The notes below the pieces were generated by a model. That model saw nothing but the letters and a program-made list of their open reading frames with translations. It had not been told where the DNA came from and did no database searches. The position numbers were made by a program, and so were the translations under genes. DNA of 64,000 nt, from positions 54,847,847-54,911,846 of the forward strand of contig CM018048.1 of assembly GCA_008638375.1 (NCBI GenBank), read 5' to 3'. Below are positions 17,220 to 59,459 of the stretch, piece by piece. The first letter of the stretch is position 1. The number at the start of each line of letters is the position of its first letter. This DNA is from Nyssa sinensis. Its lineage: Eukaryota; Streptophyta; Magnoliopsida; Cornales; Nyssaceae.

Positions 17220-19354
17220 GTAGGTTCTGCTTTCTGTCTGCTTGTTCAAAATTACACTTGCACACACGCATTCATAATGATAAGAAATTATAGTTTGAGA
17301 CTTTGGATATATTCAAATTAATGAGAACATTGGAAATAAAAGAAAAAGAATTGCTCCCGGTATACTAAGGAAGTCAATCAAAGGTAGATCTAATAAGTTC
17401 ACTAAGAAATTAATTTTTTAATTGAAGAAACCTCATGTTCAAACTAAGTAAAACATCATAAATGCAGATTGCAAAATTTTAAATTGGTAAATAAAAAACT
17501 CGTAAAAAAATCAATTGAAGTTTCCAATGGAATGAGACCCATGTACCCCTTAAAACTGAAGAAAAGAAATAATACAAGAAAATTAATTTTGTTAACCTTT
17601 AACTCCTTGAATTGTCAGATTAATTATTTTTAATCATTATATACCATTACTCTATTACAAAGAAGATACCTAAGATATGTAATCATCAAATATTCATTAA
17701 AAATCTTCTTTTTCTCAATATTTGAGATATTTTGTTAAAAATTCAATAAACAACTTTGTTATCTCTAAAAAGTTATCCTTTCAGCCAACATGGTTGATTT
17801 GTCCAATTGATATCCAAATGATTGCTCATTGTTGAGTTGAACTGTTGAAGCAACACATAGCTTTGGCCTTTGGAGTCTCTTGCAAGTTTCATTCTTAAAT
17901 GGGGCCATGACCTTTTGCATCACCTAGAAAGTAAGAAAAAAGGTAAAAACGAAAGAACAGTACCATTGAAAATTTAGAAATGGAGGTGCTTATTATTGAT
18001 TATACTGATAATGGCTGTTTTTGCACCGTAGGTCCTGCTACTAGTTTGCGATGGGAAATTAAGTTCACAAGCTAAATATTTTTTTTGTTATCAGCACAAA
18101 ATTTAAGGATTCTGTATGAGGGTAAAATAGAAGAATCAATGATACGAGGAAGAATGAATAAAATTACTACAAAAAGAAACTTTCATGGTTTACCGACAAA
18201 TGGGTTATGGTTAGGTCCAATCTGGCTGGCAGAAATTAAAGATTAAGTGGTAATTCCAAGGCAATTAAGATGACTGCCAATCTCTATAAATACATGACAA
18301 ACCTATCTTCTGGCTCCACAGAACTTTCTACTGTTCCTCCTGCTATCATTACTCGTTACACATTTCTCTTGCTAATAAACTTCTCAATACGTGCTTTTAG
18401 TAAATTGGTGCCTTCCTAGACTTCTTCTTCAAAAATAGAATATTTTTTCTTTTAAACAAGAAAACACAGGTCGGTGATTTTGTCCACCATACAATTAAAC
18501 TAAGCTTTTATAATGTAAGATTTTGTAAGAAAGCTTTTACAAAAATGCCATAGTAAAAGATGATCATAAGATTTAATGAACAGGACTAAGACTCGGATAA
18601 GCTGGAGACATGCCCATCTGTCAATATTTGGCATGTACAATATTTTATTTTTGCCCCCTATATTCTTCTTTTATTTCTATATCAATGGACCAATGACAAA
18701 TGTTTTTTTTTTTTTGGTTGCATTTCTTTCATACAATTTTATTGAAAATACTTATCATTCTTCTTTGAGATAATTCAAATGTCTTTGAATGTTTATGTCC
18801 TTGATTACATGAATTTTCACATGTTCTCAGCTACTCAAATAAACTGATCTGGAGCTTGTTGATCTGTTACGAATACTTTAAACCATCAATACTGATATAA
18901 TCAATAATTTTTGTAAGTTAAATTCTTAGCACTTGGTAAAAATTTGGTTAACAAAACAAACAGTTCATGAATAATGTTAATAATAATTGATGGCACCTTG
19001 TTGGCTGGAAATCCTGAATTGATATGGGTTAATTTGGCACTATACCCATTTAAGTTGTAACCACAAATGTTACCTGACTTGTAGGCCTATGGATTATAGT
19101 GGTTGGTCAAAGATTGATTTATTATTTAGCTGTTGATACATTAGTTTTTCTTTTTCACACTCTATATTGTTGGATGAGTCTGACATTTCTCAACTTACAT
19201 GTGAAAATTCAGTCAGGAAAAAAAGCTTTGTCAAAATTTAGTTATATGCAGAAAAAGTAGATATTGATGGGCAGCTGCAACCATGAAGAATATTTCTATA
19301 TCTATCTATTAATCTTTTTGTTTTCCTATTTTTTATTTATGTATTTCCATGCAG
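17220..19354 (+). other. Intron in the 3' UTR of the MA3-domain gene
   Basis: Seven bases after the stop codon is a donor (CTGAG|GTAGGT, at 17220). The next good acceptor, CATGCAG, ends at 19354. The segment from 17323 on is also the left part of the 9.2-kb tandem duplication. It contains a plus-strand TATA-like site (CTATAAATA near 18283) and a short minus-strand open stretch near 17785-17920 that is frameshifted in copy B, so I do not call a gene. Confidence 0.6.
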
Positions 19355-19705
19355 GTTCTGTTCTTTAATCTTCATTTCTGCATGACTACATCATCAAAGG
19401 ATCTATTTCAGTAGTTTGCCCTTCATGTGGATGGTCTGAAGATCAATGCAAATTCTGTCTTCTGTTGTGGTAGAGAATATATCCAGGTTTGCTTCCCATT
19501 GCCAAGTTAAGCAAGGGTGTATGAGCTCCGTATTTTAAGTGGGATGGTTCAAACGACGGGGCCTTAAGTTTGCCATACTGATAATTTTGCAGTAGAGTAT
19601 TTCTTTACAGTTCAGTCTGAAGTAGTCTTAACTTTTTAATTTGGTTATCTAGTGATGAGGATATGTTTGATAAGTGTCAATAAATGAATTTGAAAGCTGC
19701 ACTCA
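19355..19705 (+). other. Last 3' UTR exon of the MA3-domain gene
   Basis: Follows the acceptor ...TTTCCATGCAG. AATAAA at 19679-19684 would serve as polyadenylation signal, so the transcript should end near 19700. The sequence has no coding frame. A near-identical copy is at 28908-29260. Confidence 0.5.
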
Positions 19706-19814
19706 TGCATTGATACTGTTCCTAAACAAATAACTTATATTATGATTAGTTAGGTAAATTGCATTGGAATTCTTCTTGTTTTTATTTTTACGTTACAAGG
19801 AAGTTGGGACCGGT

Positions 19815-20096
19815 TTACAGCCACAACAGTGATGTACTGGTATTGGCTAAAGCTTTAAACTTTAACCCACCCGGGCGTAGCGTAGCTGGTAGGAGGGAGG
19901 GTCTCGGGATGTTGATTAGGTTGAATGACCTGGGTTCAAGCCTCTTTTGAAGTGCAAGTTTGCGAATTACCTGATGCGTATGATTAGTGGGTGATTGCGC
20001 ACATCTGGGGTTTACCTTCTAGGGCTATGGGCCAAAGGTTTATGCCTTAGGGGGGATCCACGTCATAAAAAAAAAAGAAAGAAAGTTGGGACCGGT
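19815..20096 (+). mobile_element. tRNA-derived SINE with 14-bp target duplication
   Basis: Present in copy A and absent from the matching site in copy B (29349-29370). It is flanked by the direct repeat aagttgggaccggt (19801-19814 and 20083-20096; B has it once). The body has a pol III A-box-like element (tagcgtagctggtagga), a B-box-like element (gggttcaagcctc, 19932-19944) and an A-rich tail (about 20066-20083). About 55 bp precede the A-box, more than usual, so the element may have a 5' extension. Confidence 0.85.
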
Positions 20097-21917
20097 GTGT
20101 ACAAAGTCTTTAAATTCTCATCCTTTCAACTATATAAATTCTCATCTGTTCTTTCCAAAGGATTTATTCAATCTTTCATTCAAACCAATGGTATCTAACA
20201 GAATAATATCATTCACATCAAAGGGAAAACATCACATACGCAATTTAACCATTAATTTTGCAATTATAACATCATCACAATCATTCAAACATTTTATTAA
20301 ACACTTGGTAGACATATAAACTTCTAACAAGTTTATGAATAATAAGTAAATAATTTTTGAACATTTAAGTAAAAAAATTTTAAGCCGAGACCATGCCTCG
20401 AATACATATGTCAACATTCTAGACAAGATATTTCATGGGTTAAACATATAATATTCATCTACAAATCCATTTAGTAATTTACATAATTTTTTCTACACAC
20501 TTTTCATATAACATGGTCCATAGAGATGCCATAATATGCATGTTTTCTCCCTAACATTCATCTTTCACCTAGGTTAGAAGTACTACCTCAAAACAAGTGT
20601 GTATTTGTGTGTAGAGAGAGAGATTCCAATTTCAAGCCTCAATCTTTGCTTTCAAAATCTAAGAAATGATTTACACTGTTTGTTTCACTCAACCAAGTTA
20701 TATCCACAAGGAAATGCAAGAAATTTGAAAAGTAAATGAAAAGCATCAAATTTGACTTTTTGTTCTGGAAGAAATATTGAAATTTTAGCTTTTCAATCAA
20801 CAGAAATCTTCCTAAGCTTGGACTTTGTACTAGAAAGTATGTGCCTATCTTAAGATTCCGTAGAATCCATCAATCTCTAAGAACCCTAATTTTTCTCCCT
20901 TGGCTTGAGAGAGTTTGGAGAAGAAGAAAAATGGGATTTGGGCACAAATTTCTTTTCAGCTCGCAACTTAAAAGTGTTATGTCGTACGCTCAATCGAACG
21001 AACAAGGTTTTCGTTCGAACGAGTATCAAACAGAGATCACACCAAATTTTTTTTTTCTGATTTCTACAGTTCAAGTTTTTTACTTTTTCAATTTATTCCA
21101 CATATATTATCACACTCCATATTATATTGTTTAAATTTTTTTCATCATAATATTATGTTCGTGAAGTTTATTATCATGCAAAACTAACATTATCCTTTTA
21201 TTTATTCTCCAATTTTATGAAACTTTACAGCTTTAACAAAAAGGCATTTTTTCCTTTAAGTTGACTAAAATATAAGAAAATGTTACGTTAATTTGAAGTA
21301 ACCATTCCTATGCTACAAACACAACTGTTCCAACCAATTGTAATTGTAGAATTCTAATTTCACCTGATCAAATTGTGATATTGTTCGGTCAATACTACAC
21401 AACTAAACTAAACTTCGAGTGTAGTTAACTCTTTATAATCCCCAACTAATTGACCAAGTATTACTGTTGAATATTTGATTAACAAAATTTTCTATATTTA
21501 TATATTTTTCTTCTTTTGGCTATAAGTTATTATTTGGAGGTGAAAGCTGTAGAAACAAGGCTGAAAATGGTGGCTATGGAGCGAGAAGTATATTTCACGG
21601 CTGTCCTGCCTTCAAGCTAGAGAAGCTATAAAACCATCAGTGTAAAGTTTAAGGGCATTTTTAAAACTAAAAGTTGTATATTTTTTGTCTAATTATTTAA
21701 TTGGCAGGGTTATACTTTTATTACTATAAACCTTTTGGAGTTTTATTTACTATATCATATAGATAAAAATGAACAAAGGGAGAAAATCTCAAGTCTAAAT
21801 TTTGACATAAGAAGGAAATAGTAAAAAGAAAAAGGTTGACCATGACTTATTTAGGTTGTCTAAACATTTAAATTTAAACCCAAAGCTAGGAGGCTTTTAA
21901 ATGTTGACATATGAGGT
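20097..21917. other. Intergenic DNA, copy A
   Basis: AT-rich DNA shared with copy B at 29360-31660. No gene is supported. Near 20985-21030 is a pair of CGAACGAA/TTCGTTCGAACGA motifs in about 75 bp absent from copy B. The motif is also abundant in the copia LTRs at 50.1 and 59.5 kb. Confidence 0.6.
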
Positions 21918-23486
21918 TCAATGCTTCATGTCGTTTGGGTCGTTGGGAAAATATCCATTAAACCCAAAACCTTTGAAAGTAGAGTCTGTTGCTGGAGGTG
22001 GCCTATGATTTTGAATAGGGTTTGGGCCGTTTGGAACATCATGAAAAGACCCAAAACCTTTTGTTGTAAATTTCCATGGATTAGATTGCACTGAAGTCTC
22101 TTCAAGATTTCGATCAATTGAAGACGAGTCCGTTGCTGGAGGTGGCCTATGATTTTGAATAGGGTTTGGGCCATTTGGAACATCATGAAAAGATCCAAAA
22201 CCTCTTGTTGTAAATTTCCATGGATTAGATTGCACTGAGTCTCTTCAAGATTTCGATCAATTGAAGACGAGTCCATTGCTGGAGGTGGCCTATGATTTTG
22301 AATAGGGTTTGGGCCATTTGGAACATCATGAAAAGATCCAAAACCTCTTGTTGTAAATTTCCATGGATTAGATTGCACTGAAGTCTCTTCAAGATTTCGA
22401 TCAATTGAAGACGAGTCCGTTGCTGGAGGTGGCCTATGATTTTGAATAGGGTTTGGGCCGTTTGGAACATCATGAAATGACCCAAAACCTTTTGTTGTAA
22501 ATTTTCATGAATTAGATTGCACTGATGTCTCTTCAAGATTTTGATCAATTGAAGACGAGTCCGTTGCTGGAGGTGGCCTATGATTTTGAATAGGGTTTGG
22601 GCCATTTGGAACATCATGAAATGACCCAAAGCCTCTTGTTGTAAATTTCCATGGATTAGATTGCACTGAAGTCTCTTCAAGATTTCGATCAATTGAAGAC
22701 GAATCCATTGCTGGAGGTAGCCTATGATTTTGAATAGGGTTTGGGCCGTTTGGAACATCATGAAAAGACCCAAAACCTCTTGTTGTAAATTTCCATGGAT
22801 TAGATTGCACTGAAGTCTCTTCAAGATTTCGATAAATTGAAGACGAGTCCGTTGCTGGAGGTGGCCTATGATTTTGAATAGGGTTTGGGCCGTTTGGAAC
22901 ATCATGAAAAGATCCAAAACCTCTTGTTGTAAATTTTCATGGATTAGATTGCACTGAAGTCTCTTCAAGATTTCGACCAATTGAAGACGTCTGTTGCTGG
23001 AGGTGGCCTATGATTTTGAATAGGGTTTGGGCCATTGGGAACATCATGAAAAGACCTGAAATGTTGTGTAAAACCAAAATCTCTTGTTATAAATTTCCTT
23101 AGATTAGATTGCATTGTAGGTTGTTTATTTGGGTCAATTGAGACAAACCTTTTTATATATGATGAGTCCATTGTCGGAGGTAGCGCCCTGTCATTGTTAG
23201 ATGGGGTTGGGCCGCTGGAAACATTGTGAAATGACCCAAAACCTCTCATTGTAGATTTCCTCAAATTTTGTTGTGCCAAAGGCTCTCCAAGATTTGGAAG
23301 CTTTTTGACCCCAACATTCTTCAATGCAAGTGGGTGAAAATTTGCAGCCACAGGAGATTCAACTTTATTTGGGCCTGAATGGACAAGCCTTGTGACCTTA
23401 TACTCTAGTGAATCATAATGACCTGCAATGAAAGACGAAAATAGAAGAGTGATTGGAACAAGTAAATATATTTTGGCAAACTTCAT
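21918..23486 (-). pseudogene. Multi-CLE-domain precursor gene, copy A (broken)
   Basis: Starts MKFAKIYLLVPITLLF at 23486, a signal peptide followed by GHYDSLEYKVTRLVHSG as in the intact copy B gene. It would encode one degenerate CLE motif (HNVSSGPTPSNN) and eight HDVPNGPNPIQN units, spaced mostly 48 codons apart, ending NDPNDMKH. Three lesions break it: a 2-bp deletion near 22988 that ends the first frame at 22965 after one good unit; a Trp-to-stop change at 22505-22507; and a 1-bp deletion near 22237. The frame present after the last lesion is open to the normal stop at 21918. From the normal start the product would be only 173 aa, but it still carries a signal peptide and one intact CLE dodecapeptide, so residual function is possible. 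Confidence 0.9.
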
Positions 23487-23553
23487 TGTTTTACACTTCC
23501 TCTCTAACTTGAAAAAATTTCTTTTGATGTAATTTCAATTGCATAACGTCTTC

Positions 23554-23560
23554 TTATATA
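23554..23560 (-). promoter_or_regulatory. TATA box of CLE copy A
   Basis: TATATAAGAAGA on the minus strand about 70 bp before the ATG. It sits at the same place in the other CLE loci (33304-33310, 38251-38258, 40814-40820). Confidence 0.7.
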
Positions 23561-23569
23561 ATATATGCA

Positions 23570-24792
23570 AAGGGTTTCTCATTCATTACAAGAATATATG
23601 AACTCCATATTTGATAAGATAATAATTTGTGGAGATAGGACATTTATATCACATCTTTTGGATGCCAATAAGTGAATCAATTGAGATATTCTCTTAGATT
23701 GAGTTAGAGGATGAGGGCGACCAAAATTAACTTTGATAATTTTAATTAAAAAAGATAAGGTAAATTACATTTTTTACCCTGATTTTCACTTTAGTCCCTA
23801 TCATTTCAATTTTGTCAATTTTACCCTCTAATTTTTAGTCCCATTTCAATTTCATCATTTCGTCACAATTGCCCTTTTAATGTGAACGGGAAAGACCATG
23901 CGCGAGGCACATAAAAATTTAAAGAAATTATTTTTCCATCCACATTAAACAATCAATTGTAACGGAATGATGAGATTGAAATAGGGTTAATAATTGGAGG
24001 GTGAAATTAGCAAACTTGAAAGCATATGGACTAAAGTGAAATTCAAGATAAAATTTAAGGGTGAAAAGTGTAATTTATCCAAAAAGATATGACAATGTGT
24101 AGTCTAACTGAGAGAATGATTTTAATTAAAAAAGAATGACAAGACAAATTTTATGTAGCCAACCCTAATTAAGTTATTAGTTTCTCCTTCGTTGCTTATT
24201 TACCCGAAAAAAATTGTTTCTCTTTGATTTGTTTCTAAGTTGGTACTCTATTGATTGAAAATCTCCAAACCATTGCACCCTGGGGTTAACCCGGTTCAAA
24301 CTTCTGAACCTTTTTTCTACTTTGTATATGCTTGTGCTCAATTGAACATTGTTAAATATGAACTTTAGTGAATATATATTTTATGTAATTGAAAATTAAA
24401 AAGTTAAAAAAGGGTAGTCAATCAAGTAGAGTTGCAGCCATCAAGCAATGAGTTTTGATATTAACCAGAAGAGAGAAAAAAAAAAAAAAAACCTCCTCGT
24501 GTCAATTAGTCAAAATTTTGGGGATCCTTTCCAAATTTTTAATACTTTTTGTATACTCTAATATACTATATTGATGACAATGATACTATAAGATCATCAA
24601 GGATTTTATTTCATATGTATTTATTGATATAAATCTTGCTACCTCATAGTCTAAAGAAGAAATACATGAGTGAAATATTTATATATGCATGTATAATTAT
24701 ACAAATTTACCTTTTCCACTATATTTTATCCATAAATACGTAAGTACAAGCAATTGGCGACCATGTGTTTATGAATATGGGTTTCATTAACT

Positions 24793-24828
<36 letters not shown>

Positions 24829-25365
24829 AATAAACATAAATTGAATGAGAAAAAATAAGTAGGACCCACATATATTTATTGATATGGGTTCTACTCTCTT
24901 TTGTCTATGCATGGGCAGGAAAATACAATAAAAAGCAGGTTTCTTACCTAGAAATACTAGTAAGTAGGAATGCATGTGACATTTTGTTTGTGTTTTTTAT
25001 ATTATCGTTTGGCCAATTTCAAACAAATAGATGAATAGAAAGTATATTTCATGATTGTATTGCCTTCAAGTTAGAGAAGCCTTAAAACCCATTATATTAA
25101 AAGTTTAAGGGCACTTTCAAAATTAAAAGTTATATATATATATATATATATATTTATTTATTGGGCAGGGTGTTATATTTCTATTACTGTACGTAAATTT
25201 ATTGTAGTTTTATTCATTAAATCACAAAGATAAAAGATAACTAGTGGGAGCAAAATTGCAAGTCTACCTCTTGACATATGAATGAAAAAGGATAAAGAAA
25301 AGCATTGTGCATGACTTATTTAGGTTGTCTAGAATTTTCAATTTAAACCAAATGGCAGGAGGCTT
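23570..25365. other. Intergenic DNA with TA microsatellites, copy A
   Basis: No coding region. TA repeats are at about 24795-24825 and 25133-25153. The equivalent in copy B is 33310-35110 with slightly different repeat lengths. Confidence 0.6.
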
Positions 25366-25371
25366 TTGCAC

Positions 25372-25615
25372 ATGGGCTTATGAGGTTCAATGCTTCATAT
25401 AGTTTGGGTCGTTGGAAAATTTTCCATTAAACACAAAACCTTTGAAGTTTATGGCCTCACAACAGATTCTCCAGGAGGATAGGTCAGGATTTGAGCCACC
25501 TGGAACAAGTCTTTTTAATTCAAAATTTCTGAAATAATATATGATGGGCCCATTTCTGGAGGCTGTGGCGGCATGTCATGTTTCATAGGGTTTGGGACAG
25601 CAGGTATTTGATAGG
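25372..25615 (-). pseudogene. CLE precursor relic A2
   Basis: The 3' end of a CLE gene without leader. Minus-strand frames give NPMKHDMPPQPPEMGPSYIISEILN and then, one frame over, KRLVPGGSNPD, the core of an A-type CLE motif (copy B has KRLVPGGSNPDHPPGE). An extra base after ...NPD distinguishes it from B2. The downstream flank (TTTGGGTCGTTGGAAAATTT at 25401-25420) is homologous to the 3' end of the full multi-CLE genes. Confidence 0.7.
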
Positions 25616-25619
25616 AGTG

Positions 25620-26510
25620 TAATTTGGATGAGTCAGGCTTATGCTAAAATATGGCCAAGTTCAATTCAATCTCTAAAACTAGTTAATTAGAGTATGGCTT
25701 GAACCTAACCCTAAACTTGGAAAACCTAACTTGGCTCGAATTAAAATTTCACTAGTATCAGATTCCACCTAAGTCCAACCCAAACCTAATTGTTAATTTT
25801 AATTTTTAGATTTTTTTCACGAACCCAATCATGTTTCAGTGCTTTTATTTATTTTAACCCATGTCATAAGGATTTCTTTAGAATGTAACTAGGAAACAAG
25901 GCAATGTAATTTATTTATTTCATTTTTTTTGCATTTGTATATACCTTGTTGTAACAGATTTGCCCAAAACAAGCTATCGACTCCCATTTCTCTATTTTAT
26001 GTTTTCTCATAGAGTCATTCCGTCCCACCTTTAGGGAAGGGGACAGCGAGGACCCCTCTATCTTCGAAGGGTACATGTGGATATTTTCTGGCGGTGGTGC
26101 CCACATGAACATTGTATTATATATTGGCATTATGCATTGGATCTTGCATGACCTATTGGATACGTTGATATATCATGATCTATTATTTGCTTCGGTCTAA
26201 CATTGTGGATGTTGATGAGATAAGATGAGATTGTGGATTCAAATGAGATACTTGGAATTGAATTACGAGAATCATTACCCATAATCTTGTGTTTGGGATT
26301 ATATCTCCCCTCGGCTTTGGACCGTAGATCTGCATAAGAGATTGTCTTGGTCCTTTGGGTTAGTGGCCATAAGTGGTACCTTGGGTGTTGATTGTGTGAG
26401 AACATGTAGATGGGACTGATGTGGGCCTTGTGTGCATGGTTATAGAATTGACATGAAATCATATAACATGTCATACAACATTTATGAAAGTGTATATGCA
26501 TATAGCATGA
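25620..26510. other. Intergenic DNA, copy A right part
   Basis: Contains a repeat fragment with 'cctaacccaaacc'-type phrases (about 25640-25800) also seen at 36360-36540. The DNA at 25900-26510 matches 35490-36090 in copy B. No gene is supported; the open minus-strand frame near 26130-26519 has no recognisable domain. Confidence 0.5.
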
Positions 26511-26511
26511 C

Positions 26512-26546
26512 TTTTGCACATGGGCTTATCAGGTTCAATGCTTCAT
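26512..26546 (-). pseudogene. CLE relic A3, cut off at the duplication joint
   Basis: Only the downstream flank (CACATGGGCTTAT...GGTTCAATGCTTCAT) of a CLE gene 3' end remains. In copy B the same flank continues into relic B3 at 36092. The break at 26546 is the copy A end of the tandem duplication. Confidence 0.6.
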
Positions 26547-26868
26547 TGTATGCATGATTACGCTTCTGATTATTGATCTACAATGGTAGTCATTTATCTT
26601 TTATTCATATGAAGCTTTTCACAAGTATATTATAGTGGTTGTTTTGCAAAAACACATGTTAAATCAATCATATTATTGATTGCAGTATCACAAGTCAATA
26701 GATTAGATATCCCATGTAAATCTTTTCTTACAGATTTTTGGGGTTTACTTGTAGGTATCTAATTTTAGTTGTTCTTGTATTGAGTTTTGTCATGGATTTC
26801 CAAAGGGAGAGTTTGTTAGGATTATTCGTCACAAATATTGACTAGTCTATGAGACAAAACTGTCATTG
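26547..26868 (+). mobile_element. Copia fragment at the duplication joint
   Basis: Matches 59190-59515 of the complete copia element downstream: internal 3' end from 'tgtatgcatgattacgc', the polypurine tract (aaagggagagttt) and the first ~55 bp of the LTR (tgttaggattattcgtca...). It ends at 'tgtcattga', directly followed by the start of copy B. It has no LTR end and no target duplication, so it looks like captured filler, not an insertion. Confidence 0.85.
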
Positions 26869-28907
26869 AAAACATTGGAAATAAAAGAAAAAGAATTGCT
26901 CCCGGTATGCTAAGGAAGTCAATCAAAGGTAGATCTAATAAGTTCACGAAAAAATTAATTCTTTGATTGAAGAAACCTCAAGTTCAAACTAAGTAAAACA
27001 TTATAAATGCAGATTGCAAAATTTTAAATTAGTAAGTAAAGAACTCGTAAAAAAATCAATTGAAGTTTCCAATGGAATGAGACCCATGTACCCCTTAAAA
27101 CTGAAGAAAAGAAATAATACAAGAAAATTAATTTTGTTAACCTTTAACTCCTTGAATTGCCAGATTAATTATTTTAATCATTATATACCATTACTCTATT
27201 ACAAAGAAGATACCTAAGATATGTAATCATCAAATATTCATTAAAAATCTTCTTTTTCTCAATATTTGAGATATTTTGTTAAAAATTCAACAAACGACTT
27301 TGTTATCTTTAGAAAGTTATCCTTTCAGCCAACGTGGTTGATTTGTCCAATTGATATCCAAATGATTGCTCATTGTTGAGTTGAACTGTTCGAAGCAACA
27401 CATAGCTTTGGCCTTTGGAGTCTCTTGCAAGTTTCATTCTTAAATGGGGCCATGACCTTTTGCATCACCTAAAAAGTAAGAAAAAAGGGTAAAAACGAAA
27501 GAACAGTACCATTGAAAATTTAGAAATGGAGGTGCTTATTATTGATTATACTGATAATGGCTGTTTTTGCACCGTAGGTCCTGCTACTAGTTTGCGATGG
27601 GAAATTGAGTGCGCAAACTAAATATTTTTTTTTGTTATCAGCACAAAATTTAAGGATTATTTATGAGGGTAAAATTGAAGAATCAATGATACGAGGAAGA
27701 ATGAATAAAAGTACTACAAAAAGAAACTTTCATGGTTTACCGACAAATGGGTTATGGTTAGGTCCAACCTGGCTGGCAGAAATTAAAGATTAAGTGGTAA
27801 TTCCAAGGCAATTAAGATGACTGCCTATCTCTATAAATACATGACAAACCTATCTTCTAGCTCCACAGAACTTTCTACTGTTCCTCCCTCTGCTGTCATT
27901 ACTCGTTACACGTTTCTCTTGCTAATAAACTTCTCAATATGTGGCCTCTTTAGTGAATTGGTGCCTTCCTAGACTTCTTCTTCAAAAATAGAATATTTTT
28001 TCTTTTAAACAAGAAAACACAGGTCGGTGATTTTGTCCACCATACAATTAAACTAAGCTTTTATAATGTAAGATTTTGTAAGAAAGCTTTTACAAAAATG
28101 CCATAGTAAAAGATGATGCTAAGATTTAACGGACAGGACTAAGACTCGGATAAGCTGGAGACATGCCCATCTGTCAATTTTTGGCACGCACAATATTTTA
28201 TTTTTGCCCCCTACATTATTCTTCTTTTATTTCTATATCAATGGACCAATGACAAACGTTTTTTTTTTTTGGTTGCATTCTTTCATACAATTTTATTGAA
28301 AATACTTATCATTCTTCTTTGAGATAATTCAAATGGCTTTGAATTTTTATGTCCTTGATTACATGAATTTTCACATGTTCTCAGCTACTCAAATAAACTG
28401 ATCTGGAGCTCGTTGATCTGTTAAGAATACTTTAAACCATCAATACTGATATAATCAATAAATTTTGTAAGTTAAATTCTTAGCACTTGGTAAAAATTTG
28501 GTTAACAAAACAAACAGTTCATGAATAATGATAATAATAATTGATGGCGCCTTGTTGGCTGGAAATGCTGAATTGATATGGGTTTGGCCCTATACCCATT
28601 CAAGTTGTAACCACAAATGTTACCTGACTTGTAGGCCTATGGATTATGGTAGGTTGGTCAAAGATTGATTTATTATTTAGCTGTTGATACATTAGTTGTT
28701 CTTTTTCACACACTATGTTGTTGGATGAGTCTGACATTTCTCAACTTCCATGTGAAAATTCAGTCAGGAAAAAAAGCTTTGTCAAAATTTAGTTATATGC
28801 AGAAAAAGTAGATATAGATGGGCAGCTGCAACCATGAAGAATATTTCTATATCTATCTATTAATCTTTTTGTTTTCCTTTTTTTTTTATTTATGTATTTC
28901 CATGCAG

Positions 28908-29260
28908 GTTCTGTTCTTTAATCTTCATTTCTGCGTGACTACACCATCAAAGGATCTATTTCAGTAGTTTGCCCTTCATGTGGATGGTCTGAAGATCAAT
29001 GCAAAATTCTATCTTCTGTTGTGGTAGAGAATATATCCAGGTTTGCTTCCCATTGCCAAGTTAAGCAAGGGTGTATGAGCTCCGTATTTTAAGTGGGATG
29101 GTTCAACGACGGGCCTTAAGTTTGCCATACTGATAATTTTGCAGTAGAGTATTTCTTTATAGTTCAGTCTGAAGTAGTCTTAACTTTTTAATTTGGTTAT
29201 CTAGTGGTGAGGATATGTTTGATAAGTATCAATAAATGAATTTGAAAGCTGTACTCGTGC
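28908..29260 (+). pseudogene. Duplicated 3' UTR exon of the MA3-domain gene
   Basis: Near-identical copy of 19355-19705, including the acceptor CATGCAG and AATAAA at 29231-29236. No coding exons accompany it, so it is an orphan fragment. It could still act as a downstream acceptor and poly-A site for the real gene. Confidence 0.65.
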
Positions 29261-31028
29261 AGTGATACTGTACCTAAACAAATAAATTATATTATGATTA
29301 GTTAGGTAAATTGCATTGGAATTCTTCTTTGTTTTTATTTTTACGTTACAAGGAAGTTGGGACCGGTATGTACAAAGTATTTAAATTCTCATCCCTTCAA
29401 TTATTTCAATTATCTAAATTCTCACCCGTTCCTCGTAAATTATTTATTTAATCTTTCATTCAAATTAATGGTATCTAAAAGAATAATATCATTCACATCG
29501 AAAGGAAAACATCACATACGCAATTTAACCAATAATTTCCCAATTATAACATCATCACAATCATTCAAATATTCTATCAAACACTTGGTAGACATATCAA
29601 CTTCTAACAAGTTTATGAATAACAAGTAAATAATTCTTGAGCATTCAAGTAAAAAAATTTTTAAGCTGGAACCATGCTTTGAATACATATATCAGCATTC
29701 TAGACAAGATATATAAAGGGTTAAACATATAATATTCATCTACAAATCCATCTAGCAATTTACATAATTTTTTTTACATACTTTTCGTACAACATGGTCC
29801 ATAGAGATGCCATAATATGTATGTTTTCTCCCTAACATTCATCGTTCACCTAGGTTAGAAGTCCTACCTCAAAACAAGTATGTAATTGTGTGTAGAGAGA
29901 GAGATTCCAATTTCAAGCCTCAATTTTTGCTTCCAAAACCTAAGAAATGATTTACACTGTTTATTTCACTCAACCAAGCTATATCTACAAGGAAATGCAA
30001 GAAATTTGAAAAGGAAATGAAAAGCCCCAAATTTTACCTTTTGTTCTTGAAAAAATCTTGAAATCTTAACTTTTCAATCGATAAAAATCTTTCTAAACTT
30101 GGATCTTTACACTAAAAGGCATGAGTGTATCTTAAGATTTCATGGAATCCATCAATCTCCAAGAACCCTAATTTTTCTCCCTTAGCTTGAGAGAGTTTGG
30201 AGAAGAAGAAAAATGGGATTTGGGCACAAATTTCTTTTCAACTCGCAACTAAAAAGTGTTATATCGTACGTTCGATACCTTTTCAATTTATTCCACATGT
30301 ATCATCACACTCTATATTATGTTGTTTAATTGTTTTTCATCTTATTATCATGTTCGTGAAATTTATTATCATGCAAAACTAACACTATCCTTTTATTTAT
30401 TTTCTAATTTTACGAAACGTTACAACTTCAACAAAAAGGCATTTTTTCCTTTAAGTTGACTAAAGAATAAGAAAATGTTACGTTAATTTGAAGTAACCAT
30501 TCCTATGCTACAAACACAACTATTCCAACCAATTGCAATTATAGAATTCTAATTTCACCTGATCAAATTGTGATATTGTTCGGTCAATACTACACAACCA
30601 AACTAAACTTCGAGTGAATGATATATTAACATTCATTGTGCTTGAAACAATTGCTCACTGAAACTCTTCTCCATTGATATAAAATGAATAGAGACCCATT
30701 TCTTCAAAATTTAAAATATCACATTTCTTTTTAATCTGGGATGATTTTAGCGTTTTCTGTTTTTTTTTTTAAACTCTAAAATTCTAGTAAAGCTGCATAG
30801 TATTTATTTCTTTTAAAATTCAAGAGCCTTGTAAACTAAGTACTAAATATCACTTTTCTTTTCTTTCTTATCCTTTTCACATTGCACATAAATTCCCCCT
30901 ATCGGCATGAGTAAAATAAGGTCATTAAAATCTTGATTTTATTAAGATCCATCAATCATGCAAACATTTTGATGTTCTATAAACCAAGTAAATTTGGAAA
31001 TGGAAGTAAGGTGATTTACGATTTCTAA

Positions 31029-31067
<39 letters not shown>

Positions 31068-31664
31068 GTTGAAACAACATGACATACATGTAGATTGGTT
31101 ATTGACCGGTTCAGTATACTATGAAATGGACAACCATGTTAGTTTGTTCCAGTGTAGTTAACTCTTACAATCCCCAACTAATTGACCAAGTATTACTGTT
31201 GAATATGTGATTAATTTATATTTTTTTTCTTCTTTTGGCTAATTTCAAATAATGAAATGAATAATAAGTTATTATTTGGAGGTGAAAGCTGTAGAAACAA
31301 GGCTGAAAATGGTGGCTATGGAGCGAGAAGTATATTTCACGACTGTCCCGCCTTCAAGCTATAGAAGCTATAAAACCATCAGTGTAAATTAAAGTTTAAG
31401 GGTATTTTCAAGACTAAAAGTTGTATATTTTTTGTCTAATTATTTAATTGGCAGGGTTATACTTTTAGTACTATAAACCTTTTGGAGTTTTATTTACTAT
31501 ATCAGATAGATAAAAATGAACAAAGGGAGAAAATCTCAAGTCTACCTTTTGACATAAGAAGGAGATAGTAAAAAGAAAAAGGTTGACCATGACTTATTTA
31601 GGTTGTCTAAACATTTAAATTTAAACCCAAAGCTAGGAGGCTTTTAAATGTGGACATATGAGGT
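29260..31664. other. Intergenic DNA, copy B
   Basis: Matches copy A except for the absent SINE (at 29365), a missing ~75 bp near 30273, and about 535 bp present only here (30617-31150) that include a GT microsatellite. No gene is supported. Confidence 0.6.
31036..31065. repeat. GT microsatellite
   Basis: About 15 GT units inside the segment found only in copy B. Confidence 0.9.
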
Positions 31665-33236
31665 TCAATGCTTCATGTCGTTTGGGTCGTTGGGAAAATA
31701 TCCATTAAACCCAAAACCTTTGAAAGTAGAGTCTGTTGCCGGAGGTGGCCTATGATTTTGAATAGGGTTTGGGCCGTTTGGAACATCATGAAAAGACCCG
31801 AAACCTCTTGTTGTAAATTTCAATGGATTAGATTGCACTGAAGTCTCTTCAAGATTTCGATCAATTAATAACGAGTCCGTTGCTGGAGGTGGCCTATGAT
31901 TTTGAATAGGGTTTGGGCCGTTTGGAACATCATGAAAAGATCCAAAACCTCTTGTTGTAAATTTCCGTGGATTAGATTGCACTGAAGTCTCTTCAAGATT
32001 TCGATCAATTGAAGACGAGTCCGTTGCTGGAGGTGGCCTATGATTTTGAATAGGGTTTGGGCCGTTTGGAACATCATGGAAAGATCCAAAACCTCTTGTT
32101 GTAAATTTCCATGGATTAGATTGCACTGAAGTCTCTTCAAGATTTCGATCAATTGAAGATGAGTCCGTTGCTGGAGGTGGCCTATGATTTTGAATAGGGT
32201 TTGGGCCGTTTGGAACATCATGGAAAGATCCAAAACCTCTTGTTGTAACTTTCCATGGATTAGATTGCACCGAAGTCTCTTCAAGATTTCGATTAATTGA
32301 AGACGAGTCCTTTGCTGGAGGTGGCCTATGATTTTGAATAGGGTTTGGGCCGTTTGGAACATCATGAAAAGATCCAAAACCTCTTGTTGTAACTTTCCAT
32401 GGATTTGATTGCACCGAAGTCTCTTCAAGATTTCGATTAATTGAAGACGAGTCTGTTGCTGGAGGTGGCCTATGATTTTGAATAGGGTTTGGCCCGTTTG
32501 GAACATCATGAAAAGATCCAAAACCTCTTATTGTAAATTTCCATGGATTAGATTGCACTAAAGTCTCTTCAAGATTTCGTTCAATTGAAGATGAGTCCGT
32601 TGCTGGAGGTGGCCTATGATTTTGAATAGGATTTGGGCCATTTGGAACATCATGAAATGACCCAAAACCTCTTGTTGTAAATTTCCATGGATTAGATTGC
32701 ACTGAAGTCTCTTCAAGATTTCGATCAATTAAAGACGAGTCGGTTGCTGGAGGTGGCCTATGATTTTGAATAGGATTTGGGCCATTGGGAACATCATGAA
32801 AAGACCTGAAATGTTGTGTAAAACCAAAATCTCTTGTTAGAAATTTCCTTAGATTAGATTGCATTGAAGGTTGTTTATTTGGGTCAATTGAGACAAACCT
32901 TTTTATATATGATGAGTCCATTGTCAGAGGTAGCGCCCTGTCATTTTTAGAAGGGTTTGGGCCACTGGAAACATCGTGAAAAGACCCAAAACCTCTCATT
33001 GTAGATTTCCTCAAATTTTTTTGTGCTAAAGGCTCTCCAAGATTCGGAAGCTTTTTGACCCAAACATTCTTCAATGCAAGTGGGTGAGAATTTGCAACCA
33101 CAGGAGATTCAACTTTATTTAGGCCTGAATGGACAAGCCTTGTGACCTTATACTCTAGTGAATCATAATGACCTGCAATGAAAGACGAGAATAGAAGAGT
33201 GATTGCAGCAAGTAAATATATTTTGGCAAACTTCAT
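31665..33236 (-). CDS. Multi-CLE-domain secreted peptide precursor (TDIF-like, nine CLE motifs)
   Basis: Intact 523-aa single-exon ORF. Residues 1-22 are a signal peptide (MKFAKIYLLAAITLLFSSFI), then a variable propeptide. The first CLE motif is degenerate (HDVSSGPNPSKN, residues 87-98). Eight identical motifs HDVPNGPNPIQN follow, starting at residues 147, 195, 243, 291, 339, 387, 435 and 483: an exact 48-residue (144-bp) period. Each is followed by HRPPPATDSS and a linker (RNLEETSVQSNPWKFTTRGF). The tail NGYFPNDPNDMKH looks like a tenth, eroded motif. The motif matches Arabidopsis TDIF (HEVPSGPNPISN) at nine of 12 positions, so it is B-type-like; TDIF peptides act from phloem through PXY/TDR on cambium. 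Multi-CLE proteins are known in rice, wheat and Medicago; this series is not one I recognise. Processing and Hyp modification are inferred. Confidence 0.9.
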   Translation of the reverse strand: MKFAKIYLLAAITLLFSSFIAGHYDSLEYKVTRLVHSGLNKVESPVVANSHPLALKNVWVKKLPNLGEPLAQKNLRKSTMRGFGSFHDVSSGPNPSKNDRALPLTMDSSYIKRFVSIDPNKQPSMQSNLRKFLTRDFGFTQHFRSFHDVPNGPNPIQNHRPPPATDSSLIDRNLEETSVQSNPWKFTTRGFGSFHDVPNGPNPIQNHRPPPATDSSSIERNLEETLVQSNPWKFTIRGFGSFHDVPNGPNPIQNHRPPPATDSSSINRNLEETSVQSNPWKVTTRGFGSFHDVPNGPNPIQNHRPPPAKDSSSINRNLEETSVQSNPWKVTTRGFGSFHDVPNGPNPIQNHRPPPATDSSSIDRNLEETSVQSNPWKFTTRGFGSFHDVPNGPNPIQNHRPPPATDSSSIDRNLEETSVQSNPRKFTTRGFGSFHDVPNGPNPIQNHRPPPATDSLLIDRNLEETSVQSNPLKFTTRGFGSFHDVPNGPNPIQNHRPPPATDSTFKGFGFNGYFPNDPNDMKH

Positions 33237-33303
33237 TGTTTTACACTTCCTCTCTAGCTTGAAAAAATTTCTTTTGATGTAATTTCAATTGCATAACCTC
33301 TTC

Positions 33304-33310
33304 TTATATA
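33304..33310 (-). promoter_or_regulatory. TATA box of the intact multi-CLE gene
   Basis: GTTATATAAGAAGAGGTTATG on the minus strand, with the TATA about 70 bp upstream of the ATG at 33236. This predicts a leader of about 40 nt. The same block lies in front of the paralogues. Confidence 0.75.
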
Positions 33311-33319
33311 ACATATACA

Positions 33320-34544
33320 AATGGTTTGTCATTCATTACAAGAATCTATGAATTTCATATTTAGTAAGATAATAATTTTGTGAATATGGACATTTATATC
33401 ACATCTTTTGGATGTCAATAAGTGAATCAATTGGAATGTTCTCTTAGATTGAGTGAGAGGATGATGGCAACCAAAATTAACTTTGATAGTTTTAATTAAA
33501 AAAGATCAGGTAAATTATACTTTTTACCCTTGAACTTTACCCTGATTTTCACTTTAGTCTCTATCCTTTCAATTTTTGTCAATTTCACCCTCTAATTTTT
33601 AGCCCCATTCAATTTCATCATTCCGTCAGAATTGGCCTTTTAATGTGAACGGGAAAGACCATGCGCGAAGCACATAAAAATTTAAAGAAATTATTTTTCC
33701 ATCCACATTAAACAATCAATTGTAACAGAATGATGAGATTGAAACGAGATTAAAAATTGGAGGGTGAAATTAACAAACTTGAAAGCATATGGACTAAAGT
33801 AAAATTCAGGATAAAATTTAATGGAGAAAAGTGTAATTTATCCAAAAAGATATGATAATGTGTAATATAACTGAGAGAATGATTTTAAATAAAAAAAGAA
33901 TGACGAGACAAATTTTATATAGCCAACCCTAATTAAGTTATTAGTTTCTCCTTGATTGCTTATTTATCCCGAAAAAAATTGTTTCTCTTTGATTTGTTTC
34001 TATGTTGGTTACTATATTGATTGAAAATCTCCAAACCATTGCACCCTGTGGTTAACCCGGTTCAAACTTCTAAACCTCTTTTCTACTTTGTATATGCTTG
34101 TGCTCAATTGAACATTGTTAAATATGAACTTTAGTGATTATATATTTTATGTAATTGAAAATAAAAAAAGTTAAAAAGGGTAGTCAATCAAGTAGAGTTG
34201 CAGCCATCATGCAATGAGTTTTGATATTAACCAAAAGTGAGAAAAAAAAACCTCGTGTCAATTAGTCAAAATTTTGGGGATCCTTTCCAAATTTTTAATA
34301 CTTTTTGTATACTCTAATATACTATATTGATGACAATGATACTATAAGATCATCAAAGATTTTATTTCATATGTATTTATTGATATAAATCTTGCTATCT
34401 CTATAGAAGAAATACATGAGCGAAATAATTATATATGCATGTATAATTATACAAATTTACCTTTTCCTCTATATTTTTGTCCATAATAAATACATAAATA
34501 CAAGCAATTGGCGGCCATGTGTTTATGAATATGGGTTTCATTAA

Positions 34545-34587
<43 letters not shown>

Positions 34588-35110
34588 ATAAATTGAATGA
34601 GAAAAATAAGTACGGCCCACATATATTTATTGATATGGGTTCTACTATCTTTTGTCTATGCATGGGCAGGAAAATACAATAAAAAGCAGGTTTCTTACGT
34701 AGAAATACTAGTAAGTAGGAATGCATGTGACATTTTGTTTGTGTTTGTGTTTTTTATTTTTTCGTTTGGCCAATTTCAAACAAATAGATGAATAAAAAGT
34801 ATATTTCATGATTGTATTGCCTTCAAGTTAGAGAAACCATAAAACCCATTATATTAAAAGTTTAAGGGCACTTTCAAAATTAAAAGTTATATATATATAT
34901 ATATATATTTATTGGACAGGGTGTTATATTTCTATTACTGTAAATCTATTGTAGTTTTATTCATTAAATCACAAAGATAAAGATAAATAGTGAGAGTAAA
35001 ATTGCAAGTCTACCTCTTGACATCTGAATGAAAAAGGATAAAGAAAAGCATTGTGCATGACTTATTTAGGTTGTCTAGAATTTTCAATTTAAACCAAATG
35101 GCAGGGAGGC
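33320..35110. other. Intergenic DNA with TA microsatellites, copy B
   Basis: Equivalent of 23570-25365. TA repeats are at about 34549-34583 and 34889-34908. No gene recognised. Confidence 0.6.
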
Positions 35111-35111
35111 T

Positions 35112-35322
35112 TTTGCACATGGGCTTATGAGGTTCAATGCTTCATATAGTTTGGGTCGTTGGAAAATTTTCCATTAAACACAAAACCTTTGAAGTTTATG
35201 GCCTCACAACAGATTCTCCAGGAGGATGGTCAGGATTTGAGCCACCTGGAACAAGTCTTTTCAATTCAAAGTTTCTGAAATAATTTATGATGAGCCCATT
35301 TTTGAAGGCTGTGGCGGCCCGA
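35112..35322 (-). pseudogene. CLE precursor relic B2
   Basis: The 3' end of a CLE gene. The minus strand reads NYFRNFELKRLVPGGSNPDH followed by PPGESVVRP and a stop, an intact A-type-like CLE end (RLVPGGSNPDHP). The upstream part (PPQPSKMGSS) is in another frame and the leader is gone: a deletion near 35318 removed the rest and joined unrelated repeat DNA. Confidence 0.7.
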
Positions 35323-36091
35323 ATTAAAATTCATTAATATCGGATTCAACCTAAGCTCAGCCCGAACCTAATTATTAATTTTAATTTTTAGATTTTATTC
35401 ACGAACCCAATAATGTTTCAGTGCTTTTATTTATTTTAACCCATGCTAATGGATTTCTTTAGAATATAACTAGGAAACTAGACAATGTAATTTATTTATT
35501 TCATTTTTTTTCATTTGTATATATCTTGTTGTAACAGATTTGCCCAAAACAAGCTATCGACTCCCATTTCTCTATTTTATGTTTCCTCATAGAGTCATTC
35601 CGTCCCACCTTTAGGGAAGGGAACGACGAGGACCCCTCTATTTTCGAAGGGTACATGTGGATATTTTCTGGCGGTGGTGCCCACATGAACATTGTATTAT
35701 ATATTGGCATTATGCATTGAATCTTGTATGAGCTATTGGATACGTTGATATATCATGATCTGTTATTTGCTTCAGTCTGACATTGTGGATATTGATGAGA
35801 TAAGATGAAATTGTGGATTCAAATGGGATACTTGGAATTGAATTACGAGAATCATTACCCATAATCTTGTGATGGGGATTATATCTCCCCTCCACTTTGG
35901 ACAATAAATCTGCATAGGAGATTGTCTTGGTCATTTGGGTTAGTGGCCATAAGTGGTACCTTGGGTGTTGATTGTGTGAGGACATGTAGATGGGACTGAT
36001 GTGGGCCTTGTGTGCATGGTTATCGAATTGACATGAAATCATATAACATGTGCATACAGCATTTATGAAAGTGTACATGCATATAGCATGG

Positions 36092-36355
36092 CTTTTGCAC
36101 ATGGGCTTATGAGGTTCAATGCTTCATACAGTTTGGGTCGTTGGAAAATTTTCCATTAAACACAAAACCTTTGGAGTTTATGGCCCACAACAGATTCTCC
36201 AGGTGGATGGTCAGGATTTGAGCCACCTGGAACAAGTCTTTTTAATTCAAAATTTCTGAAATAATATATGATGGGCCCATTTTTGGATGTTGTGGCGGCA
36301 TGTCATGTTTCATAGGGTTTGGGTCAGCAGGAACCTTGCGCACAGACCTAATAGT
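36092..36355 (-). pseudogene. CLE precursor relic B3 with two motifs
   Basis: The minus strand reads SVRKVPADPNPMKHDMPPQ...KMGPSYIISEILN and a stop; RKVPADPNPMKH is a CLE motif. One frame over, KRLVPGGSNPDHPPGESVVG gives a second, A-type-like motif. No leader precedes it; upstream DNA from 36355 is unrelated repeat. It shows that even the short relics came from a multi-motif gene. Confidence 0.72.
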
Positions 36356-37889: not shown

Positions 37890-38182
37890 CTAATGCACCA
37901 AATTCAAAATGATAAATTGTACATTACCACATCCTATTATATAGTCCAAATATGAGCCCCTTTTCAGAGGTGGTGGCGTCTTGGCACCGTGCAAAGGGTT
38001 TGGGCCAAAAGGAACCTTGCATAAAGACCCAAAATCTGTTGTTATAGATTTTCTTAGATTAAATTGCATTGAAGGGACAAGCCTTGTGACCTTATACTCT
38101 AGTGAATCAAAATGACCTGCAACAAAATAAAAAAAAATAGAAGAGTAATTGCTCCAAGAAAATGCACTTTGAAGAACTTCAT
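37890..38182 (-). pseudogene. Single-CLE precursor gene with frameshift in the signal peptide
   Basis: ATG at 38182 gives MKFFKVHFLGAITLLFFF. Near 38130 the frame is lost in a T-rich run. In the next frame it resumes as GHFDSLEYKVTRLVPSMQ...LRKSITTDFGSL and a CLE motif CKVPFGPNPLHG, then AKTPPPLKRGSY, stopping at 37890. Arg at motif position 1 is replaced by Cys. Only one motif is present, so this may resemble the ancestral single-CLE state or be a contracted array. The leader and promoter match the multi-CLE paralogues. Confidence 0.8.
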
Positions 38183-39410: not shown

Positions 39411-40744
39411 CTAGAAATTTAATAAGCCCATTTTCGGATTTGGTGGTGACACTTAATTGTGCAAAGGGTCAGGGCTAGTAGGAACATTGCGTAAAGACCC
39501 AAAGCCTTTTGTCCCTTCAAGATTTCGACCAATTGAAAATGAGCCCATTTTTGGATTTGGTGGCGGCACTTTATTGTGCAAAGGGTTAGGGCCAGTAGGA
39601 ACATTGCGTAAAGACTCAAAGCCTCTTGTCTCTTCAAGATTTTGACCAATTAAAAATGAGCCCATTTTTGGATTTGGTGGTGGCGCTTTATTGTGCAAAG
39701 GGTTAGGGCCAGTAGGAACATTGCGTAAAGACCCAAAGCCTCTTGTCTCTTCAAGATTTCGACCAATTGAAAATGAGCCCATTTTTGGATTTGGTGGCGG
39801 CGCTTTATTGTGCAAAGGGTTAGGGCCAGTAGGAACAGTGCGTAAAGACCCAAAGCCTCTTGTCTCTTCAAGATTTCGACCAATTGAAAATGAGCCCATT
39901 TTTGGATTTGGTGGCGGCGCTTTATTGTGCAAAGGGTTAGGGCCAGTAGGAACAGTGCGTAAAAACCCAAAGCCTCTTGTCTCTTCAAGATTTCGAGCAA
40001 TTGAAAATGAGCCCTTTTTGGATTTGGTGGCGGTACTTTATTGTGCAAAGGGTTAGGGCCAGTGGGAACATTGCGTAAAGACCCAAAGCCTCTTGTCTCC
40101 TCAAGATTTCGACCATTTAAAAATGAGCCCATTTTTGGATTTGGTGGCGGCACTTTATTGTGCAAAGGGTTAGGGCCAGTAGGAACATTGCGTAAAGACC
40201 CAATACCTCTTGTCTCTTCAAGATTTCGACCAATTGAAAATGAGCCCATTTTTGGATTTGGTGGCGGCACTTTATTGTGCAAAGGGTTAGGGCCAGTAGG
40301 AACATTACGTAAAGACCCAAAACCTCTTGTCTCTTCAAGATTTCGATCATCAATTGAAGATGAGCCCATTTTTAGAGGTGTTGGTGGCACGTCATGTTGC
40401 ATAGGGTTAGGGCCGGTAGGAACCTTGCGTAAAAATCGAAAACCTCTTGTCTCTTCAAGATTTCGACCAATTGAAAATAAGCCCATTTTTGGATTTGGTG
40501 GCGGCACTTTATTGTGCAAAGGATTAGGGCCAGTAGGAACATTACGTAAAGACCCAAAACCTCTTGTCTCTTTAAGATTTCGATCAATTGTAAATGAGTC
40601 CTTTGCCGAATAAGATTCAACTAGATATTGGCTTAAAGGAACAAGCCTCATGACCTTATATTGTAATGCATCATAATGACCTTCAACGAAAGAGAAAAAT
40701 AGGAGAGTGATCGCTCCAAAGAAATAGACTTTGTCAAGCTTCAT
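39411..40744 (-). pseudogene. Multi-CLE-domain precursor with ten A-type motifs, frameshifted
   Basis: Starts MKLDKVYFFGAITLLFFSFV, a signal peptide, then GHYDALQYKVMRLVP. CLE motifs start at residues 67, 106, 146, 185 and 224 (RNVPTGPNPLHN, RKVPTGPNPMQH, then RNVPTGPNPLHN three times), with a 39-residue (117-bp) unit: linker GRNLEETRGFGSL, motif, KVPPPNPKMGSFSI. A 1-bp deletion near 40014 throws out the frame after the fifth motif, and translation runs to 39650 in the wrong frame. Five more motifs lie in the original frame (RTVPTGPNPLHN twice, RNVPTGPNPLHN twice, RNVPTSPDPLHN), followed by a Lys-to-stop change at 39453. The product still has a signal peptide and five intact motifs, so the gene may work. 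The motif is closest to A-type CLE19/CLE21-like peptides. Confidence 0.85.
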
Positions 40745-50107: not shown

Positions 50108-51365
50108 TGTTAGGACTATTCGTCTAATCTGTGAGACAAAACTGTCATTAAGTTATAATGTTGACCAAGTTATTGAGTGTAGAGTCCTTAAGCCTTGTGA
50201 TCATTAAAGAACGTGTCTGGTTTCAGTTTAAGGCTGTCTTATTTCCACATAACTCTCACATACTGCATATGGAAAATCATTGATTAGCTCTTGGTAAGTT
50301 TGGATAGGATCTATCTCACACACACACACACTCTCATGTATTAAGTTTAACTTACTATTTTAATATGTGAAAGTGTATAGTGTAATGGTTCTATGAATAA
50401 TAATAGCTCACTTAACTATGCCTAGTTCTGAAAGATTGCTTAAGTGGGTTATTATATGTTATTGACTTAAAACTAGAAATTTTAGGGTTTTTTCACAATA
50501 TTGATTCGAACAAATCATGAGTTCGTTCGCACGAAATAGAAATTTGTTTGCACGAATAATTCTAGTGAGCTTATCGTATATTTTAACAAAATATTCGTTT
50601 GATCTTTCAATCGAACGAATTTTTTAGAAACCCATTCGTGGGACATTCGTTCGAACAAATGATCCAACGAATTTTGCAGTACCTTTTATATCACATTCGT
50701 TTAATAATTCGTTCAAACGAATTGAGGTTCGTGCGAACAAACACCTAATTCTTGGGAACGAATGTTGCGCATATCAATTTTGTAATTGGGTTTAAACAGT
50801 TTGATTTCCTTTCTAAAACCTATCCTATATAAGGATTTGATCTCTAATTCGTGAAAATACTTTTGGCTTGCTATCAAAGAGAGCTTCTAAACTTTCCAAA
50901 AGTTTTTTTTCTTCATATGCATATTGCACACATAGATAAATCCTTGAAGAAAACCTGTATTCCATCTTCTACATTGTTCGTTTGAGTACAAGTTTATGGA
51001 TTTCAAGTTTGTGCAATCAGGCAGAGTTCGAGATTGCGTGGAGTTCGCAATTGTGCTTGGATCGTCGTTTGTGGAGTTCAAAGCAACAGATACATTTGAA
51101 GGGTACTTGAGGATTTAAGTTTGAGAAGATTCAGATTATCAACAAGGCTTGAGGGACTAAGATTGAGTTGTAAAGAGTTTGTAATCATCAAACCTCTTCT
51201 AGTGGATTCACATCTGGGTTAGCACCCCAAGGTTTTCCAAAGTAGATTTAGTTGATCTGTGGTTGTTTTCTCATCAACAAATTCGATGCACTGCCTTTAT
51301 CTTTTTACTATTGCTTTATTTATTATTGTTATAATTATTATTGCATGTCACTAAATTTTTTTACA
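50108..51365 (+). repeat. 5' LTR of the copia element (3' end deleted)
   Basis: Matches the 3' LTR from TGTTAGGAC up to ...TTTTTTTACA. The last ~117 bp of the 3' LTR (60752-60868) are absent here, and the sequence goes straight to the PBS. It contains many TTCGTTCGAACGAA-like motifs at 50505-50765. Confidence 0.88.
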
Positions 51366-51366
51366 C

Positions 51367-53117: not shown

Positions 53118-53479
53118 AAGCCTCAAGTTGTATCACAACCAAATGCATGGTATTATAGTTATTGTAAGAAAGAAAGACATACAAAGGAATATTGTAAAGA
53201 GGCTAAGAGAGAGAAAAATTACCAAATCACTAGTATGCCAAAATCAGAGTTGTCAATCATAAAGCAATAATTAAACACCTTAGTTCAGAGATTTCAGAGT
53301 TTAGCTCAAAGAGTCAGTAATATGACTAATTATTGTAGATTGTCATACAACTCTAAGATTAGAACTAATGATAACGAAAGTCATCCTAGAAAATTCAAGC
53401 AAATCTGGGTTAGAAAAGATAAGTTGAATTGTCTTGTTATTCACACTACTTTGAGTGCTCAAAATATCACTCAATGGTA

Positions 53480-59458: not shown

Positions 59459-59459
59459 T

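Follow-up and report, generated by a model that had tools for sequence, protein, structure and literature searches.

Positions 31665-33236 of the 64,000-nt stretch of Nyssa sinensis DNA analysed here (the window) contain, on the minus strand, a single uninterrupted ORF, gene B, whose translation runs from ATG to stop over 523 aa with zero internal stops. The dodecapeptide HDVPNGPNPIQN is found in this protein eight times, starting at residues 147, 195, 243, 291, 339, 387, 435 and 483, such that the spacing between copies is exactly 48 residues (copies 1 to 8, all minus strand: 32763-32798, 32619-32654, 32475-32510, 32331-32366, 32187-32222, 32043-32078, 31899-31934 and 31755-31790). A degenerate first CLE unit, HDVSSGPNPSKN, lies at 32943-32978 (minus strand), and the C-terminal stretch GFGFNGYFPNDPNDMKH looks like a worn unit. 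In the DNA, TRF delimits the array as 7.5 copies of a 144-bp unit with 95% matches (31729-32804). The original prediction described an intact gene for a precursor of this length, with eight identical peptides at this period and a degenerate N-terminal copy; the ORF and the copy positions bear out each of these points and supply the strand, which had been missing.

Residues 1-22 of gene B (33171-33236, minus strand) form a putative signal peptide, with the cleavage site placed by eye. By hydropathy, the leader MKFAKIYLLAAITLLFSSFIAG has a 15-residue Kyte-Doolittle maximum of 2.29, from residue 6. The precursor had been called secreted; the hydrophobic leader is present, and it is the one feature from which secretion is predicted. 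The ATG is preceded, at 67 nt, by a TATATAA box (33304-33310, minus strand). The same box lies 67 nt upstream in the neighbouring gene A and 69 nt upstream in gene C, and its exact form is absent from locus D; the 5' flank that contains it can be aligned among A, B, C and D. A second frame is open across array B on the same strand (218 aa), but it has no leader, and a chance reading of the repeat was rejected for gene B on this ground. This frame is open because the 144-bp period leaves open frames open. The core-codon pattern GGNCCNAAYCC has 28 matches in the whole 64,000-nt window, compared to a mean of 0.26 and a maximum of 2 in shuffled sequences (n = 100). Two matches outside the three arrays were checked: that at 37996 belongs to locus D, and that at 28580 has neither a CLE-like secretory leader nor a full motif.

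Gene B belongs to a cluster of seven loci, of which it is the only intact member. Its twin, gene A (21918-23486, minus strand), has eight HDVPNGPNPIQN units in a second 144-bp array (21982-23056; TRF) and is broken by two frameshifts and two premature stops. The annotated protein F0562_013077 (232 aa) begins with the leader of array A, holds some of the A units and omits part of A, possibly owing to an intron predicted over the damaged region. Genes A and B lie in the two copies of a tandem segmental duplication of approximately 9 kb (17322-26546 and 26867-36127, respectively, from self-blastn blocks that are 89-96% identical); gene C and locus D are outside it. The duplicated segments also contain a similar pair of minus-strand ORFs (26130-26525, 131 aa, and 35710-36123, 137 aa) with no Pfam match, and the duplication junction (26546-26869) matches 59192-59515 at 90%.

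Gene C (39453-40744, minus strand) is a ten-unit R-type paralogue with a 117-bp unit (array at 39421-40598; TRF). Its peptides are RNVPTGPNPLHN (six copies), RTVPTGPNPLHN (two copies), RKVPTGPNPMQH and RNVPTSPDPLHN (one copy each), and it has one frameshift, between units 5 and 6, which is either an assembly error or true. Over the first ~170 residues (leader and first units), B and C have 40% identity. Locus D (37950-38182, minus strand) is a single-unit relative, with CKVPFGPNPLHG at 37986-38021 and a frameshift within the signal-peptide region. The remaining three loci are minus-strand relics whose C-terminal ends resemble those of A and B: E1 (36119-36346; RKVPADPNPMKH and a RLVPGGSNPDHP-like remnant), E2 (35137-35270; a RLVPGGSNPDHP-like remnant) and E (25390-25613; YQIPAVPNPMKH). 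The gene had originally been described singly. Gene B is real, but the R-type/H-type tandem cluster around it was overlooked, and this cluster is more informative than gene B alone. It is adjoined by a plus-strand ORF (15344-17209 as searched) for an MA3-domain protein that is 100% identical to Nyssa sinensis F0562_013078 over 98% of the query; F0562_013077 carries the next number in the annotation.

A protein search with the 523-aa precursor returned 0 matches at E <= 0.001 among 7996 scored candidates with lengths of ~288-915 aa. Plant proteins are present in this database: the MA3-domain protein, used as a control, returned 952 matches, and among the best 120 of these the named ones are from plants. 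A search with the B/C N-terminal alignment gave two matches at E <= 0.01 among 879 candidates of ~93-296 aa, F0562_013077 (gene A) and an unnamed 111-aa CLE-like protein; no annotated protein for gene B was found within these two length ranges. The 111-aa protein (ENA; P0123) contains RKVPTGPNPLHN and the motif-like KDVPCGPKPLHN, and is possibly another two-motif CLE. In Pfam, gene B, gene C and the A leader have no match to a CLE model, and all of the matches listed for them (for gene B, only YEATS) are below the curated cut-offs and were taken as chance. The gene B peptide matches the CLE motif xxVPxGPNPxxN. Because Pfam gives no CLE match, the assignment of gene B to the CLE family rests on this motif and on its R-type paralogues. 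Viral contigs scanned for the codons of the 12-mer gave 0 matches.

All 16 HDVPNGPNPIQN copies in genes A and B have the same protein sequence, and their DNA varies synonymously; in units 2-8 of B, three peptide codons are variable, every one synonymously. In a codon alignment of A and B, synonymous and amino-acid changes number 7 and 0 in the 96 peptide codons, 21 and 25 in the spacers, and 6 and 13 in residues 1-146. Had the peptides changed as fast as the spacers, 8.9 amino-acid changes would have been expected. The resulting P values (0.0077 for peptide against spacer changes, one-sided Fisher test; 1.3e-4 for the Poisson probability of zero changes if sites are independent) are optimistic, because the units are partly homogenised and independence is thus overstated; units 2-8 of A have no one-to-one pairing with those of B. 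When a 12-codon frame is slid over 72 offsets, zero amino-acid changes are found at offsets -5 to +2 only. The invariant core therefore consists of the five preceding residues (GFGSF in units 2-8, HFRSF in unit 1), the 12-mer and the HR that follows it. Part of this invariance may be older than the lesions in A.

HDVPNGPNPIQN differs from TDIF (HEVPSGPNPISN) at positions 2, 5 and 11 only. In an alanine scan of TDIF (Ito et al. 2006, via PMC8496505), positions 2, 5, 7, 10 and 11 are reported as dispensable and H1, V3, G6, N8, P9 and N12 as critical. HDVPNGPNPIQN keeps all six residues critical for activity, as well as I10, which is reported to matter for TDR binding (PMC5383425; the TDR-TDIF structure is in PMC4979064). 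H1 reportedly determines TDR specificity: TDIF H1R binds 3.2-fold more weakly, and the R1H change in CLE9 leads to better TDR binding (PMC5383425). As His is at position 1 in all eight gene B copies, the peptide is of the H-type (B-type, TDIF), and the TDIF-like class originally proposed for it is supported. The three substituted positions are described less uniformly. S5 of TDIF makes no significant TDR contact and S5A is tolerated, while E2A reduced TDR binding in vitro (PMC5383425), and sites 2, 5, 10 and 11 are given elsewhere as important to specific TDR/PXY binding (PMC7552357). The TDIF-like HDVPSGPNPGSN, an active peptide of lower strength than TDIF, has D2 (PMC8496505), and HEVPSGPNPTQN from nematodes, a reported functional TDIF mimic, has Q11 (PMC5319780).

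The residue at position 1 separates the members of the cluster. All ten units of gene C, and E1, have Arg there. D has Cys, whose TGC codon is a single step away from the Arg codon CGC, and relic E has Tyr. In the A and B units the residue is His, also in the degenerate first ones. Relic E1 combines Arg1 with a C-terminus of the A/B type, and the remnants in E1 and E2 read RLVPGGSNPDHP. In an unrooted quartet of A to D (~300 bp of 5' sequence), A and B are grouped with an SH-aLRT of 99.4, and 17 of 18 informative sites favour A+B against C+D. From this distribution of Arg, near-Arg, Tyr and His codons, the simplest reading would be an R-type ancestor and one CGY to CAY change in the A/B lineage, and the TDIF-like class of A and B was probably acquired within an R-type cluster. 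Because the quartet is unrooted and outgroup species are absent, the R-to-H direction is one that we infer. It is tentatively suggested, at somewhat less than an even chance, that this represents an independent origin of the TDIF class in the Nyssa lineage, in which Arg1 became His, the receptor class switched from CLV1/BAM to TDR/PXY, and the new peptide became fixed and was amplified to eight copies beside an R-type sister array. Such an origin, if true, would mirror in nature the CLE9-R1H experiment done in the laboratory.

With at least two CLE dodecapeptides regularly spaced in one ORF, gene B is a multi-CLE precursor, a type of protein established in rice, wheat, Medicago, soybean and Lotus; surveys of CLE genes in poplar and tomato turned up no such precursor. 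The original prediction described known examples as mainly A-type. Such precursors are indeed known, but a B-type one has already been published in switchgrass. PvTDIFL3-MR3 and PvTDIFL3-MR2 (PMC8496505) resemble gene B in having a signal peptide (putative in B) followed by several TDIF-like motifs; in PvTDIFL3-MR3 the motif starts are 47 and 43 aa apart (48 in B), and two of its three motifs have D2, as does HDVPNGPNPIQN. However, the switchgrass proteins are 171 and 124 aa long, compared to 523 aa for B, and contain three and two non-identical motifs, one of them an antagonist, rather than eight identical ones. The comparison covers the architecture of the precursors.

The legume proteins LjCLE32/33, MtCLE14 and GmCLE37a/b have, like B, CLE domains repeated in tandem with a regular period (PMC5570945, PMC4526924). 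Up to nine domains are described (eight and nine in Lotus), and some of the copies are identical, four of them in MtCLE14; the text passages covered in these papers report no case of eight identical copies. The Lotus and Medicago units are 24-35 aa in precursors of 116-347 aa, both shorter than the 48 and 523 aa of B. A truly whole frame in gene C would give it ten motifs, one more than the nine reported for LjCLE33. The multi-CLE proteins of rice, wheat and Medicago (PMC2254619, PMC6747155) likewise have regularly spaced motifs in one ORF, but with two to six copies, and 16 of the 18 tabulated motifs start with R (one with T and one with M); rice CLE76 has DPPP after the motif where B has HRPPP.

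In a comparison of peptides only, Arabidopsis CLE41/CLE44 (TDIF, HEVPSGPNPISN) have H1 and the critical residues in common with HDVPNGPNPIQN. Their single C-terminal motif (PMC8496505), which an orthologue would be expected to have, is not found in B, where eight internal motifs are each followed by a tail. Unlike CLE41/CLE44, the nearest relatives found for B are R-type gene C, locus D and relic E1. The cyst nematode proteins HgCLEB/HsCLEB (PMC5319780) are TDIF-like with Q11, as is HDVPNGPNPIQN, but are parasite proteins with one C-terminal motif and a length of 105 aa for the first transcripts reported. In the literature searched, which included few subscription papers and no supplements, HDVPNGPNPIQN has 0 occurrences, and neither a set of eight identical H-type copies nor a cluster with an internal switch from R to H is reported. 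A survey of 69 plant species scored proteins of 30-300 residues (PMC7552357), a limit that leaves a blind spot in which a 523-aa precursor would be missed. As multi-CLE and B-type multi-motif precursors are already known, the eight identical H-type copies are moderately surprising.

A model for gene B function can be proposed. If the gene is expressed, its signal peptide would route the 523-aa protein to the secretory pathway. In each 48-residue unit, HDVPNGPNPIQN is placed between the conserved upstream flank and the downstream HR, putative protease cut sites, so that one precursor could be cleaved to yield up to eight identical peptides, presumably with hydroxylated prolines. As a member of the H class, HDVPNGPNPIQN would most likely act on TDR/PXY receptors in the cambium or procambium. 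This system probably arose by a single nucleotide step from Arg1 to His in a tandem R-type cluster, followed by amplification. Release of all eight peptides is not assured, because nematode multi-CLE proteins are reported to be processed to a single ligand (PMC4526924), the authors of a wheat multi-CLE study suspected use of the first motif only, and a switchgrass multi-motif precursor expressed in Arabidopsis gave no dosage amplification (PMC8496505). The original prediction had proposed that eight copies would multiply signal dosage per transcript. The nematode and wheat statements, together with the binding sites listed in PMC7552357, lower the confidence placed both in the TDR/PXY reading and in an independent TDIF-class origin. 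The reading of gene B as a protein-coding multi-CLE precursor for a TDR/PXY-class ligand is judged to have about an even chance.

Gene B might instead be unexpressed or dying, with its identical peptides produced by recent amplification and homogenisation. The cluster may be decaying, as all six of the other loci are broken or relics; dN/dS for the leader (A against B) is 0.63, a weak constraint; and the annotated proteins searched, of ~288-915 and ~93-296 aa, include none that matches B. This is rather unlikely given that the copies vary synonymously and never in amino acids, while the spacers change freely. The neutral chance of B remaining intact, simulated under three rate assumptions (0.12, 0.0006 and 0.18), also argues against a dying gene, but with this range the intactness of B is suggestive only and decides nothing alone. 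As for the annotation, the RNA described for the published one came from leaves and flowers only (if the F0562 entries are from that assembly), so a cambium or root gene could escape it. An error in copy number or in the intact frame, introduced during assembly of a repetitive locus, is very improbable: the 144-bp repeats are near-identical and the published assembly (if it is the source of the window) is described as PacBio with Quiver and Pilon polishing, but the array of ~1.1 kb is short compared to the subread N50 of 14.53 kb, and A and B each have eight units with unit-specific differences.

A further alternative accepts that HDVPNGPNPIQN is released, but assigns it to CLV1/BAM-class receptors, or makes it an antagonist or decoy; it would then not be a TDIF-class agonist. 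Its nearest relatives within the window are R-type, sites 2, 5 and 11 are said to be relevant to TDR binding specificity (PMC7552357), and one TDIF-like switchgrass peptide is reported to be antagonistic (PMC8496505). That antagonism arises through a change of N12 to H, however, and HDVPNGPNPIQN retains N12 along with the H1 reported to set TDR specificity; its three differences from TDIF are at positions reported as dispensable (PMC8496505). Such an activity is accordingly considered unlikely.

Nyssa, placed in the Cornales (asterids), is represented here by a species described as a deciduous tree (PMC6877568). Should gene B prove functional, an eight-fold precursor would be the source of a vascular-class CLE signal in a woody plant, and gene B would offer a sharp test of multi-hormone processing and of repeat-driven dosage in plants. 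With R-type and H-type arrays next to each other, a change of ligand class between CLV1/BAM and TDR/PXY would also become open to direct test.

The window is of plant origin. A nematode origin was rejected because the window contains both the plant MA3 gene and a degraded Copia-type retrotransposon (51702-55669, plus strand), which has gag and GAG-pre-integrase matches and an RVT_2 match below the cut-off. No tRNA was found in the window. A dispersed repeat pair of ~1.27 kb (50124-51366 and 59488-60752) is 86% identical.
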